DNA of 64,000 nt from Candidatus Polarisedimenticola svalbardensis (lineage in GTDB: Bacteria; Acidobacteriota; Polarisedimenticolia; Polarisedimenticolales; Polarisedimenticolaceae): contig JACXWD010000013.1 of the NCBI GenBank assembly GCA_014764515.1, forward strand, positions 1 to 64,000, in the 5' to 3' direction. A program made the translations under genes and the position numbers. The notes beneath the pieces were generated by a model, which saw only the letters and a program-made list of their open reading frames with translations, had not been told where the DNA came from and did not search any database. Below are positions 9,463 through 42,057 of the stretch, piece by piece (position 1 is the first letter of the stretch; each line of letters opens with the position of its first letter).

Positions 9463-10797
9463 ATGGTTCGCAAGATCCGTTTCCTGCTGATGTGCGGGCT
9501 GCTTCTGGCGGCCACAATGACGCTGTACGCAGCGGAAACCGGTTCCATCGTCCGGGTGGTGGAGATTCGCGGCGCCGTGACTCCGGTGACCCGGGTCGCC
9601 GTGGAGCGTGCCGTCGAGGAAGCGGCCGAGAACTTGGATGACCTCATCCTTATCGTGATCGACACTCCTGGAGGCATGGTGACCTCCATGGAGGCGATCG
9701 TGCAGGCGATTCTCGGATCGGAAGTGCCGGTGGTGGTCTGGGTCGGGCCTGCGGGAGCCAAGGCGGCCTCCGCAGGGTTCTTCATCCTGATGGCGGCCGA
9801 TGTCGCGGCTATGGCGCCGGGGACACACACCGGCGCCGCCTCGGTGGTCGTCCTCGGCAGCGAAAACCGGGATGACGACATCCTGCTCAGAAAGGCCAAC
9901 AAGGACGCCGGCGCCCTGATCCGCTCCCTGGCGGAGCGCCGCAACCGGAACGTGGAGGCGTGCGAGAAGGCGGTTGCCGACGCCGATGCCTTCACCGACA
10001 AGTACGCTCTCGACAACGGCCTGATCGATCTCGTGGCAGGCAGCCGTGAAGAACTGATGGAACTGCTGGATGGGCGGGAAATCACACGGCTGGATGGCAC
10101 GGCAGAGAGCCTGACCACTGCCGGGCCTGAATTTGTTGAATCGAGCTTCAGCATGAAGCAGGCGATCATGGAGTTTCTGGCGTCGCCGATAGTTGCCTAT
10201 GCACTGCTGCTACTCGGGCTTGCAGGAATTTTCATCGAGTTCACCCATCCCGGACTGATCGTGCCCGGTGTCCTGGGCGGGCTGTTTCTTGTCCTCTTTG
10301 CCATTTCGGCATCCCTCCTGCCGATCAGCCTCCTGGGTCTGGCCTTGATCGCACTGGCGATAGTGCTGTTCGTGCTTGAAGTGAAGATCGTCTCGTACGG
10401 CCTCCTCACCATGGGAGGGGTGGTTTGCCTCGTTTTCGGATCGGCTTTCCTGGTGGATGGTCCGATACCCGAACTGAGGGTTCCCTGGCCGGTGATCCTG
10501 CCCATGAGCCTGACCATGGCGGCGCTGGTAGGAGTTGCGGTCTTCATGACACGCCAGGCTATGCAAACCAGGGTGCAGACCGGCGTCGAAGGGCTGGTGG
10601 GCGAGATCGGTGTGGTCTCGGAAACGCTTTCACCGGAAGGCAGAATCCTGGTGCACGGCGAGATCTGGAATGCGGTGTGCGGATCAGGGGAGGCTGCCGT
10701 CGGAACCCGTGTCCGCATCGTCCGAGTGGATGAGATGACTTTATTCGTCGAACCCCGTCAAGGCGCTACGCCTCGGGGAACGGCTGGAGAGGTGTGA
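9463..10797 (+). CDS. NfeD-family membrane serine protease (ClpP class)
   Basis: 444 aa long-form NfeD protein. A signal peptide (residues 1-24) is followed by a ClpP/SppA-like protease domain with IDTPGG (67-71), the nucleophile region KAASAGFFI (Ser103) and a [19 protein letters not shown] segment that carries the probable partner Lys (144 or 147). Four or five membrane helices follow (about 225-375), then an OB-fold NfeD C-terminal domain (about 380-440, [21 protein letters not shown]). Known family: such proteases are encoded beside stomatin-like slipins and cleave their C-termini, and a slipin follows one base after this stop. Confidence 0.9.
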
Positions 10798-10798
10798 A

Positions 10799-11557
10799 AT
10801 GAATCCCATGACCATCGGATTGGTCGGCGCAATAGTAGTCCTGATCATCGTGTTCGCCAATGCCGTCAGGGTGCTTCCCGAGTACCAGCGTGGCGTTGTG
10901 TTCCGCCTGGGCCGGTTGCGGCCTCAGGACTACGGGCCGGGACTCTTCCTCCTGATCCCGTTTGTCGATCGCATGGTTCGGATCTCCCTTCGAACCATAG
11001 TCCATGACGTTCCACCCCAGGACATCATCACCAAGGACAACGTATCCGTGAAGGTCAACGCCGTGGTGTATTTCCGGGTCATGAACCCTCGCAAGGCGGT
11101 TGTGGAAGTGGAAAACTACCAGTACGCAACAAGCCAGCTGGCCCAGACCACGCTGCGGTCGGTGCTGGGACAATTCGAGCTGGACGAATTGCTGTCCGGC
11201 AGGGACAAGATCAACCACCAGCTCCAGGGCATCCTGGACCGGCAGACCGATCCGTGGGGGATCAAGGTCTCGTCGGTCGAGGTCAAACACGTTGACCTCC
11301 CTGTGGAGATGCAGCGGGCCATGGCGAAACAGGCAGAGGCGGAGCGGGAGAAACGGGCCAAGATCATCCACGCCGAAGGCGAAAAATTGGCGTCGGTCAG
11401 CCTGGCGGAGGCGGCCGAGCAGATGGGCAGCAACCCGGTAACGTTGCAGCTGAGGTATCTTCAGACCTTGACCGAGGTGGCGGCGGAAAAAAACTCCACC
11501 CTGATTTTCCCGATCCCCATCGATTTCATGAAATCGCTGATGCAGCGGGACAAGTGA
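10799..11557 (+). CDS. Slipin (stomatin/prohibitin-family membrane protein)
   Basis: 252 aa SPFH-domain protein. An N-terminal membrane hairpin (about residues 5-22) is followed by [17 protein letters not shown], typical of bacterial slipins, the SPFH domain (about 25-185) with [15 protein letters not shown], and an Ala/Glu-rich coiled coil (about 185-225). Slipins form oligomers in membrane microdomains. The immediate upstream neighbour is the NfeD protease that classically partners this family, and GGAGAGG lies before the start. Confidence 0.93.
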
Positions 11558-36930: not shown

Positions 36931-38163
36931 ATGAGCCTGGGCAATCTGGTTCGTGCCGGAAAACCCCGAGCAGCGGAAACTTCAGGCTCCAGCAGCCGAT
37001 TGGGTACCTACCTGCGTCGCCTGAGGGAAGGGTACGGATACACCCTCCGCAAGGTAGAGGAACGTGCCGATATCCTCGGCGAGTCCATCGACAACTCTCA
37101 GCTGAGCCGGTTTGAAAAAGGCAAGGCGGTACCCTCCTTCGACAAATTGAGGGCTCTGGCCAGGATATTCAACATACCTGTTCAGACATTTTCCGACGTC
37201 CTGGACCTGGAAGAGTACGAGCCGTTCAAACCGTCCCGGGGCGACTACGACGAACTGATCTCCGCAGGGGCCGGCCTGGTTTCCCGGGGCGAATTCGGCA
37301 GGGCCTACGTTTATTATGAACGGGCTCTGGAGGTGGCGGCGGACCGGGCCGCCGGCGCCGAGAGGGATGAAGCGATCGCCGACTCCCGCTGGCGGATGGC
37401 CACGACGCTGAAGCGCCTCGGCAAGCTCTCCATGGCTGAGCACGAGCTTCGCGAAATCCTGAAGGAATGCAAGCGGCTGGTTCCCCGGACAAGGATGCGA
37501 ACCCTGCTTCAGCTGAGCTACCTGTACCGGGAGTTGGGAGACCTGTTGCTGTCTTCCATTCTTGCCAAAGAGGCGCTGACCCTATCCAGAGAGGTGCAGG
37601 ATCCCACCACCGAAGCGGGTGTGCTCAACACCATGGCCAACATCGCTCATGCGGAGGACGACTTCGCTGCCGCCGTTGAAGCTTACGGCCAATGCCTCCG
37701 GCTTCTCCGGAGCATCGGCGGAAGCCGGGAGATGGAAGCGATCGTATCCGTCAATCTGGGCGGGTGCATGGTTCAGGCCGGCCAGACAGCTAAGGGTATG
37801 GATCTGTTGCGCCGGGCCCTCTCCGATGCTCGCAAGAACGGATACCGCAGGGCCTCTGCCCTGGCGCTGACCCGGCTGGGGGAAGCGTTCCGGGAGCAGG
37901 GCGATGCGAAACAGGCAATGACGAGTTTCAGTGAATCGGATGTCTTCGCCGCGCGGGGGAACAACTGTTACCACGATATTCTGTTCCTCAACGCCTACCG
38001 GCGGTGGGAAATGGCGCGGAGCGAAGAAAACGGAACCAGGGAAAAAATCGCCTTCGGGAGGCTGCGACACCTTAGATCCCTGTTGCAGAGAAGATTCCCG
38101 GAAGTGGATGCGTTCGACGCCCACGTCGACTGCTATCGGGGGCGTTATGAAGTTGCGGAATAA
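36931..38163 (+). CDS. XRE-family HTH regulator with C-terminal TPR domain
   Basis: 410 aa. Residues about 24-93 form an XRE/Cro helix-turn-helix (LGTYLRRLREGYGYTLRKVEE ... NSQLSRFEKGKAVPS). From about residue 105 to the end there are about seven TPR units (YERALEVAADRAAG, EAGVLNTMANIAHAEDDFAA, GVLNT-type helices). HTH plus TPR is the layout of peptide-sensing RRNPP regulators of Firmicutes (PlcR, Rgg, NprR), but it also occurs in regulators with unknown signals, and similarity of layout does not prove peptide sensing. It overlaps the following secreted-protein gene by 17 bases. Confidence 0.85.
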   Translation: MSLGNLVRAGKPRAAETSGSSSRLGTYLRRLREGYGYTLRKVEERADILGESIDNSQLSRFEKGKAVPSFDKLRALARIFNIPVQTFSDVLDLEEYEPFKPSRGDYDELISAGAGLVSRGEFGRAYVYYERALEVAADRAAGAERDEAIADSRWRMATTLKRLGKLSMAEHELREILKECKRLVPRTRMRTLLQLSYLYRELGDLLLSSILAKEALTLSREVQDPTTEAGVLNTMANIAHAEDDFAAAVEAYGQCLRLLRSIGGSREMEAIVSVNLGGCMVQAGQTAKGMDLLRRALSDARKNGYRRASALALTRLGEAFREQGDAKQAMTSFSESDVFAARGNNCYHDILFLNAYRRWEMARSEENGTREKIAFGRLRHLRSLLQRRFPEVDAFDAHVDCYRGRYEVAE

Positions 38164-38872
38164 AACGGCGACCGTTCTGCTCATGGCCTGCCTGGCTGTC
38201 GGGCTGTTCGCGGCCCCGCCCGTTTCGGCTGAGATCAGCGCAGAATGCGATGATCAGGGCCGCTACGTTCGCATGGTCTACAGGACCAATGCATCGGTGA
38301 AAAACCTGAAAATCTGGTCCGCGAACCGCAAGGTACGGCCCAACATCTTCCCGCTGAACCCTGAAGGCGACGCCTTGATGGACTCCTGGCCATACCATGT
38401 CGAAAACCGTCATGACGGAAACCGCCCCTACGTGGTCTGGAGCCGGTTCAACGGCTATGACTACGACCTGGTCTGGTCCCGATGGGGAGACGATGGCTGG
38501 TCCCCGGTGCAGTGGGTGGAATTCAATACTCATTTCGGTGTGGATCAGGATGCGAATCTGGCGTCCCATCCTGACACCGGACGGCCACACCTGGTCTGGT
38601 GGAGCGATGAAGGCGGGATAGGCCGTGTCTATCTCAGCATTTTCCTTCATAGCCGCTGGATGGGCCGCTTTCTGGTTTCGGACCTGGATGTGGACAGCCG
38701 CTACCCGGTGGTGGAGTTCGTGGAAGACAACAAGATCAAGGTGACCTACGACACGGTGGACGGGCCGGTCAGTCGTTTGGTCGTGTTCAATGCTCCTCAG
38801 ACCATCACCGACGACATCGATCCGATGACCCATCTGAAGAGAGAGCTGCAAAACTCCAACAACGGGTTCTGA
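38147..38872 (+). CDS. Secreted protein of unknown function
   Basis: 241 aa. ATG 38147 lies inside the end of the XRE-TPR gene in another frame and gives MKLRNKTATVLLMACLAVGL, a good signal peptide with cleavage after VSA (residue 28). The mature part has repeated beta-strand units with RPYVVWSRFNG and RPHLVWWSDEGG, like the blades of sialidase/BNR-type propellers but only two or three of them. No catalytic residues recognised. The 17-base overlap suggests translational coupling to the regulator. Confidence 0.7.
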   Translation: MKLRNKTATVLLMACLAVGLFAAPPVSAEISAECDDQGRYVRMVYRTNASVKNLKIWSANRKVRPNIFPLNPEGDALMDSWPYHVENRHDGNRPYVVWSRFNGYDYDLVWSRWGDDGWSPVQWVEFNTHFGVDQDANLASHPDTGRPHLVWWSDEGGIGRVYLSIFLHSRWMGRFLVSDLDVDSRYPVVEFVEDNKIKVTYDTVDGPVSRLVVFNAPQTITDDIDPMTHLKRELQNSNNGF

Positions 38873-38963: not shown

Positions 38964-41369
38964 ATGATTTTTCTCCGAAGACTGGTTCTGGCTCTGTTGC
39001 CGGTGGCCATGCTGGGTCTGTACGCCAACCGGCCGGAACTGGCCTTTCTGCCCTGGATCGCCCTGGTTCCCTGGGTGGTTTTGTATACCGACGACAGGCA
39101 GGGCAAGGTCTCTTCCCTCTGGTACGTGGGAGCAGCCCTTCTGAGCTGGGTGGCGGAGTACGCAATCTTATTCGACTACGGCTGGTATTCGCCGCTGATC
39201 ATGAGCCTTTTTCTTGGTGTCATGCGGATTCCGTTTGCGCCGTTGCTGTCCAGGATCCACCATCGGTTCCTCCTTCCAAGGACGCTGACCGTTCCTCTGA
39301 TCTGGGTGGCGGTGGAACTGCTCCGGGCAACCTTCACCCTTTCCCACATGGATCTTTTCAGGTTGGGCTATTCCCAGGCCCGCTTCCCGATCCTTGTCCA
39401 GTTCGCCGACATTACCGGAGCCTATGGAGTCTCCTTCCTGGTTGCCATGGTCAACGGACTGATTGCGGACCTGTGGTTTGCGCTGCGGCACACAGGTTTC
39501 TCCGTCAAACAGAGCCTGCGGTCCAGGCGGTTGGTCGTCTCTGTCGTCTCCGTGGCGATGGTCTTCCTGGTGGTGACCGGCTACGGGCTGATCCGTTCCT
39601 CCGGCATCGAGCTGAAGGACGGTCCCAGAGTCGCCCTCGTGCAGCCGAACGTTGCGCACACGATGCGGAACCTGGTCGGCGTTCACCTGTTGCAGCTTCT
39701 CATGACGGAAGAAAACGTTCCCGAGAACGACGTTGACCTGATCGTTTGGCCGGAAAACGCGATCATGGACAACCTGGAACGCCGGGGCATCTACCTGGAC
39801 GACCTGTCCTGGATGGCCAGACGGAAGAACGCCCGTTTACTGGTAGGCGCCCTTGGGGACTCGCCGGACCGCCCGGGATACTCCATGAACGGAGCTTTCC
39901 TGGTAAACGGAGAAGGTGAGATCGAGGGTTCCTACTTCAAGCAGATGCTGTTCCCGTGGTCCGAGTTCGTTCCGGCTGATGATTTTACCCGCAAGTTTCT
40001 TCCCGCACTGTTCCGGGCCCATCGTCTGCTGACTCGAACCGCCTGGGGGTTCATGCCGACCGGGCTTCCCGGGGATGAAACGGTGGTGATGGACCTTAAG
40101 GTCGGCGACGGCACGATCCCGTTCACGTCGCTGATCTGCATCGAGAACTGCTACCCGCCGCTGGCGGCGGAGGCGGGCAAAATGGGGGCCCGGTTCTACG
40201 TCAACATCACCAGCGAAGGTGAAGTCGGCGGTTCGGTTCAGGAACAGCTTCTTCGCATCGCCATCATGCGGGCGATCGAAAACCGCATGTCTTACGTGAG
40301 GTGCGGCAATACGGGAATTTCGGGCATCATCGACCCGCTGGGCAAGGTAATCGGGATCCTGACCGCCGAAAACGGCCAGGCGATCAGCGTCCCCGGCGTT
40401 TTCATCGGGAACGTGCCGGTTTCAACCGGGCGCCGGACGGCGTACTCAGTGTCCAGGGATCTTTTCGCCAAGGTGGTACTGTCCATAACGGCCTTGCTCT
40501 TTCTCGCCTCATTCTTCCGTCGTCCGGGGCGGGGTGGGGCTATGCCTGGGACCGTGGCGCTGCTGTCCCTGGTCCTTCTACAGGCCGGTTGCGGCGGCGG
40601 AGCGTCTCTCGGCAGCGACCCGGGCGTGGTCCAGGACCGGATTGAAGCAGGAAATCGGGCGGTCCGCGAGGGACGGCACGCCGACGCCATCCCGTTGTTC
40701 CAGGATGCCTGCGCCACCGCCGCAGGTTGCGAACGAGTCCTGGAGCCGATCGGCGTCTGTTTCAGCTCCGTCCGGAAAATTGAAGGAGGCGCTGATTTTT
40801 TCAAGCTGGTTGCCGAGACCTATCCGGAGGTCGCCGCTCCGGCCCTGGCTCAGGCCGCCAGGTTCATGGAGCAGGGCCTGTTCCTCGAGGAGGCCCGGGA
40901 GTCTTACGAGCGTTCCCTGACGATGGAGGCGTCGCCTGAGGTCTACCGCCGACTGGGGAGACTGCTGCTGCGATTCGGCGCGGTTGAAGAGTCGCTGGCC
41001 GCCTTCCGCAGCGGACTCCTGGAAGATCCGGAGGATCCCCGGCTGCAGTACTCTCTCGCTCAGGCCCTGAGACAGCTGGGTAACCTGGATGAGGCCAGGG
41101 TAATTGTGGAACGGTTGCTGGAGGGCGAGGGCAACAATGCCAACGCTTGGGCGTTCCTCGGCCAGATACTCTACGAGCAGGGGCAGGAAGAAGCTTCACG
41201 GCGGGCACTGGAGACCAGCCTGGGTCTGGATTCCGGCAACATCCAGGCCCGGTTCCTCATGGCCCGGTACGCTCTTCGAGGTGGCGATCTGGAACTGTTC
41301 CGTCGTCACCTGGACCGGGTCGTCCAGGTTGAAGAGACCCTGGGCAGAGGCCCGAGGCAAGAGGACTAG
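38964..41369 (+). CDS. lnt: Apolipoprotein N-acyltransferase fused to a TPR domain
   Basis: 801 aa, against about 510-540 for normal Lnt, which adds the third acyl chain to lipoproteins. Residues 1-215 are membrane segments and about 220-480 a nitrilase-like domain with the catalytic residues Glu264 (WPENA), Lys326 (YFKQML) and Cys392 (LICIENC). A last membrane helix ends near residue 515 in FFRRPGRGG. The frame then continues without a stop into a second hydrophobic stretch with a lipobox (LLQAGC, Cys543) and about seven TPR units (560-795). Either a true fusion or two genes sharing a frame: ATG 40542 (residue 527) could start a separate lipoprotein. DUF502 follows four bases later. Confidence 0.88.
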   Translation: MIFLRRLVLALLPVAMLGLYANRPELAFLPWIALVPWVVLYTDDRQGKVSSLWYVGAALLSWVAEYAILFDYGWYSPLIMSLFLGVMRIPFAPLLSRIHHRFLLPRTLTVPLIWVAVELLRATFTLSHMDLFRLGYSQARFPILVQFADITGAYGVSFLVAMVNGLIADLWFALRHTGFSVKQSLRSRRLVVSVVSVAMVFLVVTGYGLIRSSGIELKDGPRVALVQPNVAHTMRNLVGVHLLQLLMTEENVPENDVDLIVWPENAIMDNLERRGIYLDDLSWMARRKNARLLVGALGDSPDRPGYSMNGAFLVNGEGEIEGSYFKQMLFPWSEFVPADDFTRKFLPALFRAHRLLTRTAWGFMPTGLPGDETVVMDLKVGDGTIPFTSLICIENCYPPLAAEAGKMGARFYVNITSEGEVGGSVQEQLLRIAIMRAIENRMSYVRCGNTGISGIIDPLGKVIGILTAENGQAISVPGVFIGNVPVSTGRRTAYSVSRDLFAKVVLSITALLFLASFFRRPGRGGAMPGTVALLSLVLLQAGCGGGASLGSDPGVVQDRIEAGNRAVREGRHADAIPLFQDACATAAGCERVLEPIGVCFSSVRKIEGGADFFKLVAETYPEVAAPALAQAARFMEQGLFLEEARESYERSLTMEASPEVYRRLGRLLLRFGAVEESLAAFRSGLLEDPEDPRLQYSLAQALRQLGNLDEARVIVERLLEGEGNNANAWAFLGQILYEQGQEEASRRALETSLGLDSGNIQARFLMARYALRGGDLELFRRHLDRVVQVEETLGRGPRQED
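40542..40592 (+). other. Internal start and lipobox inside the lnt-TPR frame
   Basis: ATG 40542 is in frame with lnt, preceded by a G-rich GGGGTGGGG that could serve as a ribosome site. It begins MPGTVALLSLVLLQAGC, a hydrophobic segment ending in a lipobox with the Cys codon at 40590. The short peptide lacks a basic n-region, but in the long form the preceding FFRRPGRGG supplies it. Confidence 0.45.
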
Positions 41370-41373
41370 CCTG

Positions 41374-42057
41374 ATGCGAAGCAAAATGCTGTTCCATATC
41401 AGGAGCCGCACCGTGCGGGGTCTGCTGCTGATCCTTCCGATGCTGGTTACGATCTGGCTGCTCAAGATCCTGTTCGACCTGATCAATACCTACATCACGC
41501 CCATGGTGGTGGCGGTATTCCGCGCCGCCGGCTCCCCGGACCTGGATCGCTGGCAGGCTCGAATCGGCTTTCCGATCATCGGCCTGTTGTTGACGGTCCT
41601 GGCGATTTACCTCTGCGGCCTGCTGGCCGGGAATATCGTCGGGAGAAGGCTGGTCCTGATGGTGGAGAGCCTGGTCCTGCGCATACCGGTGGTCAAGGGG
41701 ATCTACGGCGCCGCCCGCCAACTGCTGGATGCGTTCAGCTTTGCCGAGAAAAAAACCTTCAGCAAGGTGGTTCTGGTGGAGTACCCGAGAAAAGGTTTGT
41801 GGACCATCGGGTTCGTAACCACGGAGAAAGAACACGGCATTACCGGCCAATCGAGTCATGCCGTTCCGGTATTCCTGCCGACTACGCCGAACCCGACATC
41901 GGGCTGGTTGCTGTTCGTGCCTCTTGACGATCTGATCGTCCTGGACCTGCCGATGGAAGAGGCGATCAAACTGGTCGTCTCGGGGGGAATTGTCAGCCCT
42001 GACGACATCGGACCGCTGCTGAGACCGCCCGGTCGATCCTTGCCGGAGGCTCCGTGA
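41374..42057 (+). CDS. DUF502 family membrane protein
   Basis: 227 aa. The start is ATG 41374; the frame is open further upstream but overlaps lnt-TPR. Two membrane helices (about residues 15-40 and 65-90) are followed by a conserved soluble part with the family pattern RIPVVKGIYGAARQLLD, VVLVEYPRKGLWTIGFVT and VPTTPNPTSG-like FLPTTPNPTSGW. The family is widespread in Gram-negative bacteria with no established function. It ends in a GTGA overlap with the next gene. Confidence 0.88.
   Translation: MRSKMLFHIRSRTVRGLLLILPMLVTIWLLKILFDLINTYITPMVVAVFRAAGSPDLDRWQARIGFPIIGLLLTVLAIYLCGLLAGNIVGRRLVLMVESLVLRIPVVKGIYGAARQLLDAFSFAEKKTFSKVVLVEYPRKGLWTIGFVTTEKEHGITGQSSHAVPVFLPTTPNPTSGWLLFVPLDDLIVLDLPMEEAIKLVVSGGIVSPDDIGPLLRPPGRSLPEAP

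Follow-up and report, generated by a model that had tools for sequence, protein, structure and literature searches.

The window analysed here, a stretch of 64,000 nucleotides from Candidatus Polarisedimenticola svalbardensis, encodes a lipoprotein N-acyltransferase (Lnt) that runs on in frame into a TPR domain behind an internal lipobox. This fusion is a real, conserved variant, of single origin, of a known enzyme; it was found in 10 copies in 6 genomes, all from one class of Acidobacteriota. Our preferred reading, to which we give a probability of about one half, is that the fusion is made as one precursor with an internal type II signal peptide, which would be lipidated at C543 and probably cut by LspA.

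The reading frame (Table 1) has an ATG start, a TAG at 41367-41369 and no internal stop in its 801 codons. In it a full Lnt is followed by basic residues, then by a hydrophobic segment with LLQAGC at its end, and finally by the TPR domain. A preliminary description, made from the letters of the DNA, had claimed this in-frame continuation as well as an Lnt with Glu264, Lys326 and Cys392 as catalytic residues. Both claims hold: the residues are found exactly there, and the Lnt models score above their cut-offs. The NCBIfam model TIGR00546 (lnt) gives 202.8 bits (cut-off 132.9) and is matched by 9 of 9 aligned members. Pfam finds LNT_N at 19-166 (E = 2e-20), CN_hydrolase at 222-470 (9e-20) and TPR_19 (4e-17), all above cut-off; TPR_16, TPR_2 and TPR_14 likewise exceed theirs. 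The hydrolase domain also contains E334 and E394, which match E343 and E389 of the E. coli enzyme. An AlphaFold model, computed from a 27-row alignment of the window protein with proteins from related loci, has a mean pLDDT of 88.6 and a pTM of 0.88; it shows two well-folded halves and, at the junction (521-545), a pLDDT below 50. By Foldseek the first half of the model is an Lnt fold (5n6m and 8aq2, P. aeruginosa and E. coli Lnt; TM-score against the solved Lnt structures 0.73-0.78 by target length), and the second half is a TPR superhelix whose helical repeat matches CTPR structures.

Table 1. Position of the fusion gene, its parts and its neighbours in the window
Feature	Position	Strand	Remarks
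HTH (XRE-type)-TPR regulator	36931..38163	+	conserved upstream neighbour
241-aa protein	38147..38872	+	apparent signal peptide; no Pfam match; conserved upstream neighbour
Lnt-TPR fusion gene	38964..41369	+	801 aa; Pfam and NCBIfam
Lnt membrane domain	38964..39605	+	residues 1-214; Pfam LNT_N 19-166, helices in model
Periplasmic carbon-nitrogen hydrolase domain	39627..40373	+	residues 222-470; Pfam CN_hydrolase
Catalytic E264	39753-39755	+	context IVWPE264
Catalytic K326	39939-39941	+	context SYFK326Q
Catalytic C392	40137-40139	+	context LIC392IE
Loop VNITSEGEVGGSVQ replacing the canonical TNDAWFG loop	40200..40241	+	residues 413-426; motif table
TM8, last Lnt helix	40461..40517	+	residues 500-518; model; aligned Lnts stop shortly beyond
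Internal lipoprotein-signal-peptide-like segment	40518..40589	+	basic RRPGRGG, then hydrophobic AMPGTVALLSLVLLQAG
Internal in-frame ATG	40542..40544	+	not conserved among fusions
Lipobox cysteine C543	40590..40592	+	aligned in all fusions
TPR domain	40620..41342	+	residues 553-793; Pfam and model
DUF502 membrane protein	41374..42057	+	begins 5 bases past the fusion stop

The search of related genomes for fused Lnts that the preliminary description had suggested as a check yielded nine copies beyond the one in the window. They lie in 5 further genomes, are 30-84% identical to it, and eight of them are uninterrupted, with a junction free of stops. The gene is present once in the window's genome (G000), once in its congener (G001) and once in Acidobacteria bacterium Mor1 (G004), which belongs to the same family and is assembled as a single contig. 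There are three copies in G009, from the same order as the window's genome, and two each in G010 and G013. The arrangement named beforehand as speaking against a fusion, a stop between the two parts together with a separate TPR lipoprotein gene in relatives, did not turn up. The recurrence of this layout in six genomes of the class and the alignment of C543 across all copies place it beyond chance, and its retention by distant relatives indicates a genuine arrangement under selection. The two congeners show low dN/dS on either side of the junction (0.09/1.07 in the Lnt part, 0.19/1.43 in the TPR part).

An assembly or sequencing error near 40520-40545, by deletion of a stop or by a frameshift, can practically be dismissed: four other genomes of the class, including one assembled as a single contig, have fusions with no interruption. 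What could be cited for such an error comes from the congener, where a contig ends within the gene: the fusion is divided between the ends of two contigs, with the break at residues 551-552, and the TPR piece (L032, contig C287 of G001, reverse strand) carries a TAA some 80 bases short of its contig's end. This TAA could be an error of the contig end; it could also be a genuine lesion. As far as the contig break, frame and lipobox of the congener are intact.

A non-exhaustive search through 396 Acidobacteriota genomes gave no fusion outside the class, and a single scan of genome contigs with one peptide pattern, likewise non-exhaustive, returned fusions in Acidobacteriota records only. More than 100 other Lnts were examined, and in all but one the frame closes shortly after TM8. 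The exception (L061, JAPDKE010000018.1, match 10001-11227) is extended by about 235 aa into a transferase-like domain with hexapeptide repeats, of the left-handed beta-helix type. Within its class the fused gene duplicates readily, as judged from the three copies in G009 and from G010, where the two fused genes stand in tandem on contig C276 (L039, 11581-14019 and 14052-16457). The literature searched, largely from outside the subscription journals, gave nothing relevant on Lnt-TPR fusions or internal lipoboxes.

In a tree of 49 Lnt sequences, including the ten fused ones, the fused Lnts form one clade (support 96/93). The sister group of this clade consists of unfused Lnts from family f5 of the same class, and both have TSEG in common, which occupies the place of the canonical NDAWFG. 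Among the genomes searched, this second type of Lnt seems to be specific to the class. The f5 sister Lnts (L127-L137, L142, L143) are of the TSEGW type, and both of the f5 genomes that were checked also contain a canonical Lnt.

E264, K326, C392, E334 and E394 are invariant in all fusions. The equivalents of W237 (KW), Y388 and F416 are not retained in most of them, and E394, the equivalent of E389, is retained. Of the E. coli Lnt variants, Y388A and F416A show no activity, and Y388W gets as far as the acyl-enzyme and fails afterwards (PMC5500890); W237 has been reported as important or essential (PMC5500888). With the triad kept and these three equivalents lost, the fused Lnt likely retains the acyl-enzyme chemistry and has an altered acceptor side. 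Acyl transfer from it to an ordinary apolipoprotein is not assured. Since every fusion-bearing genome also has a canonical Lnt of the NDAWFG type, the housekeeping role appears to be covered elsewhere. The window's genome has two of these, one on contig C51, which adjoins ftsA/ftsZ-like genes, and an NDAWWG variant on contig C87. This third homologue (L166, 4307-5467) has ISRSLE where others have RAIEN.

Compared with the Lnts of E. coli and P. aeruginosa (TIGR00546, PF20154 and PF00795), the fused protein has the whole fold, the Glu-Lys-Cys triad and the equivalents of E343 and E389. It differs from them in the TSEG motif, in the three lost residues, in about 280 additional residues after TM8 that contain lipobox and TPR domain, and in its coexistence with canonical Lnts. 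The preliminary description was right as to the triad, with the qualification that the enzyme is no standard Lnt: it is a diverged paralogue next to canonical Lnts.

The alignment of the fusions (A1) was made without any help at the position of the lipobox. C543 is invariant in it, and past Y494 only C543 and A575 are; apart from C543, junction and TPR part are poorly conserved. In 10 of 10 copies the Cys is preceded by a stretch with 2-5 K/R and then by a hydrophobic run with a mean Kyte-Doolittle value of 1.6-3.2. G stands directly before the Cys in eight copies, and in several a Gly/Ala/Pro-rich tether follows. A strict PROSITE-like lipobox lies within the segment in half of the copies (ASGC, TTGC, LAGC twice, ISC), and the pattern-fitting lipoboxes of relatives include ALAGC and TLAGC. 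The two copies from the window's genus (LQAGC, LQGGC) have Q at -3, which is outside the strict pattern, and three further copies deviate from it as well (LPGC, MPGC, ICC). The window's genome encodes two Lgt and two LspA proteins, all over the Pfam cut-offs. From these features, lipidation at C543 is a well-supported prediction for the fusion family as a whole; we are less sure of LspA cutting in the window's own genus. A search over CTN leucine codons found no LQ[AG]GC in ordinary N-terminal lipoproteins of the window's genome, and we count this against cutting in the genus. No paper on LspA cutting behind a multi-pass membrane domain came up in a search that left most subscription journals outside. 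Of the earlier statement that the internal lipobox is of the kind on which Lnt acts after LspA cleavage, the lipobox-like Cys is supported, since the relatives keep it.

Could the segment be an ordinary ninth transmembrane helix after TM8, with no lipidation and with the Cys used otherwise, for example in a disulfide, or conserved by chance? A hydrophobic segment with a linker is a common arrangement, and a good lipobox is missing from some copies. Yet the Cys persists in all copies amid varying neighbours and mostly with its preceding G, the hydrophobic run is short, and the tether behind the Cys recurs, which makes a plain helix improbable. Still more so is a separate TPR lipoprotein started at ATG 40542, so that two proteins would share one frame. 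This second gene start had been offered in the preliminary description, and there is a G-rich stretch ahead of the ATG. However, a comparably placed ATG (-20) occurs only in one of the G010 copies (G010a), the sole nearby ATG of the congener falls within the hydrophobic run, and one of the G013 copies (G013b) has no ATG, GTG or TTG across the 45 codons preceding the Cys. This suggestion is given up, since the start lacks conservation and a peptide begun there would have no basic n-region. The signal-peptide-like segment is not N-terminal but sits behind about 520 residues of Lnt.

In Lnt crystal structures both termini are cytoplasmic (PMC5500888). RRPGRGG after TM8 fits such a cytoplasmic C terminus, and hence the hydrophobic segment that follows is expected to point outward, with the TPR part in the periplasm, as had been proposed earlier on the same ground. 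The TPR domain contains a pair of cysteines, C583/C589, which is kept in the six nearer fusions (from the window's own family and order), as expected for a periplasmic disulfide.

With a profile of the TPR part, the ten fused copies score 270-321 bits and the next best protein in the class 107 bits; this search found no close stand-alone homologue of the domain in the class. At the nine loci examined, no TPR homologue of the fused type lies beside sister-group Lnts; at L155, one of the sister-group loci, two weak TPR matches lie several kb off. An ancestral split arrangement of Lnt and adjacent TPR lipoprotein gene was also considered, and was rejected on the nine sister loci examined and the lack of a close stand-alone homologue in the class.

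We propose that the fusion is made as one precursor of a diverged, second-type Lnt and a TPR lipoprotein. The Lnt part would insert like E. coli Lnt, with 8 helices and a cytoplasmic C terminus. The basic-then-hydrophobic segment past TM8 would serve as an internal type II signal peptide and bring the TPR part into the periplasm. Lgt would attach diacylglycerol to C543, and LspA may then cut before this residue. By this, a released TPR lipoprotein would arise beside an Lnt-like acyltransferase, which may N-acylate it or cooperate with it. Somewhat more tentative is a further version, a polyprotein with a mid-chain type II signal peptide behind eight transmembrane helices that is cut by LspA, gives enzyme and lipoprotein at 1:1 and has an acceptor site specialised for its partner.

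N-acylation requires a free amino group on the lipidated Cys, which is available only after the LspA cut. In an uncut fusion the nitrogen of C543 is in a peptide bond, and thus the fusion cannot serve its own Lnt as a substrate at this residue. The earlier idea of an enzyme attached to its own substrate is chemically sensible only for the stage before the LspA cut, with the restriction that C543 cannot be N-acylated as long as the chain is uncut. We favour cutting over a form in which the chain stays whole, with C543 maybe diacylated by Lgt as an extra anchor, no LspA cut, and the TPR domain as a periplasmic arm for recruiting or choosing particular apolipoproteins or for regulating Lnt. TPR domains commonly bind proteins, this one is never found apart from Lnt in the class, a diverged acceptor side would suit a specialised substrate, and the lipobox of the window's genus is atypical at -3. 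On the other hand, five relatives have strict-pattern lipoboxes, LspA is present, and an invariant Cys would be superfluous in a pure tether. We regard the uncut chain as rather unlikely, though it is the chief competitor of the cut precursor. On cutting, one gene would yield equal numbers of enzyme and new lipoprotein next to each other; in the uncut protein, the TPR part would stay with the enzyme as its periplasmic arm, perhaps anchored by a lipid.

A second functional domain C-terminal to Lnt is known from mycobacterial Ppm1 (BCG_2070c, Rv2051c), in which Lnt is fused to a polyprenol-monophosphomannose synthase (PMC3850990). The two systems also have in common a second Lnt homologue in the genome. 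The Ppm synthase domain of Ppm1 lies on the cytoplasmic side, whereas here a signal-peptide-like segment with a lipobox is followed by a TPR domain that is expected in the periplasm. Pfam gives no glycosyltransferase match in the extension, as a Ppm1-type synthase would call for. A lipobox Cys followed by a TPR superhelix is also the build of small periplasmic TPR lipoproteins of the PilW, Tgl and GltE types, which, unlike the fusion, start with an N-terminal signal peptide. The NCBIfam models of these types match 5-9 of 9 members weakly, and the window protein stays far under the curated cut-offs (PilW 20.2 of 154 bits, GltE 18.4 of 225). NF058595, the "lipo-invert putative C-terminal anchoring domain", has a weak local match at 500-551 (E 0.0016), which spans TM8, junction and lipobox. 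This assignment was rejected: the score is 18.8 bits against a cut-off of 37, the family is absent from the 25 most-matched families of the other members, and no paper on it was found.

Lnt is usually viewed as a general enzyme that is indifferent to its protein substrate. If our reading is true, a diverged second Lnt would be genetically tied to one lipoprotein as a dedicated pair. Lipoprotein signal peptides would then be usable, and perhaps open to cutting, within a multi-pass membrane protein, and lipoprotein prediction based on the N terminus would overlook a class of lipoproteins. The natural variants and the extension-free sister group make this directly testable.

From its surroundings in the window the fusion gene looks like part of an operon. 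The genes for the regulator and the 241-aa protein upstream overlap by 17 bases, and downstream of the DUF502 gene follow CinA, PlsY, GpsA and CpsB/CapC-type genes. A promoter and terminator scan gave no promoter-like site, and terminator-like sites were no commoner than in shuffles. The order regulator, 241-aa protein, fusion is retained in G001 and G013 only, and the other loci differ; the neighbourhood was therefore dropped as a functional clue. The two upstream neighbours are 38-48% identical to their G013 counterparts. The XRE-type regulator is 46-48% identical to its positional counterpart in G013 and 85% identical to that in G001. The 241-aa protein, which lies immediately upstream of the fusion in these two genomes as well, has WS/VVW-rich repeats.
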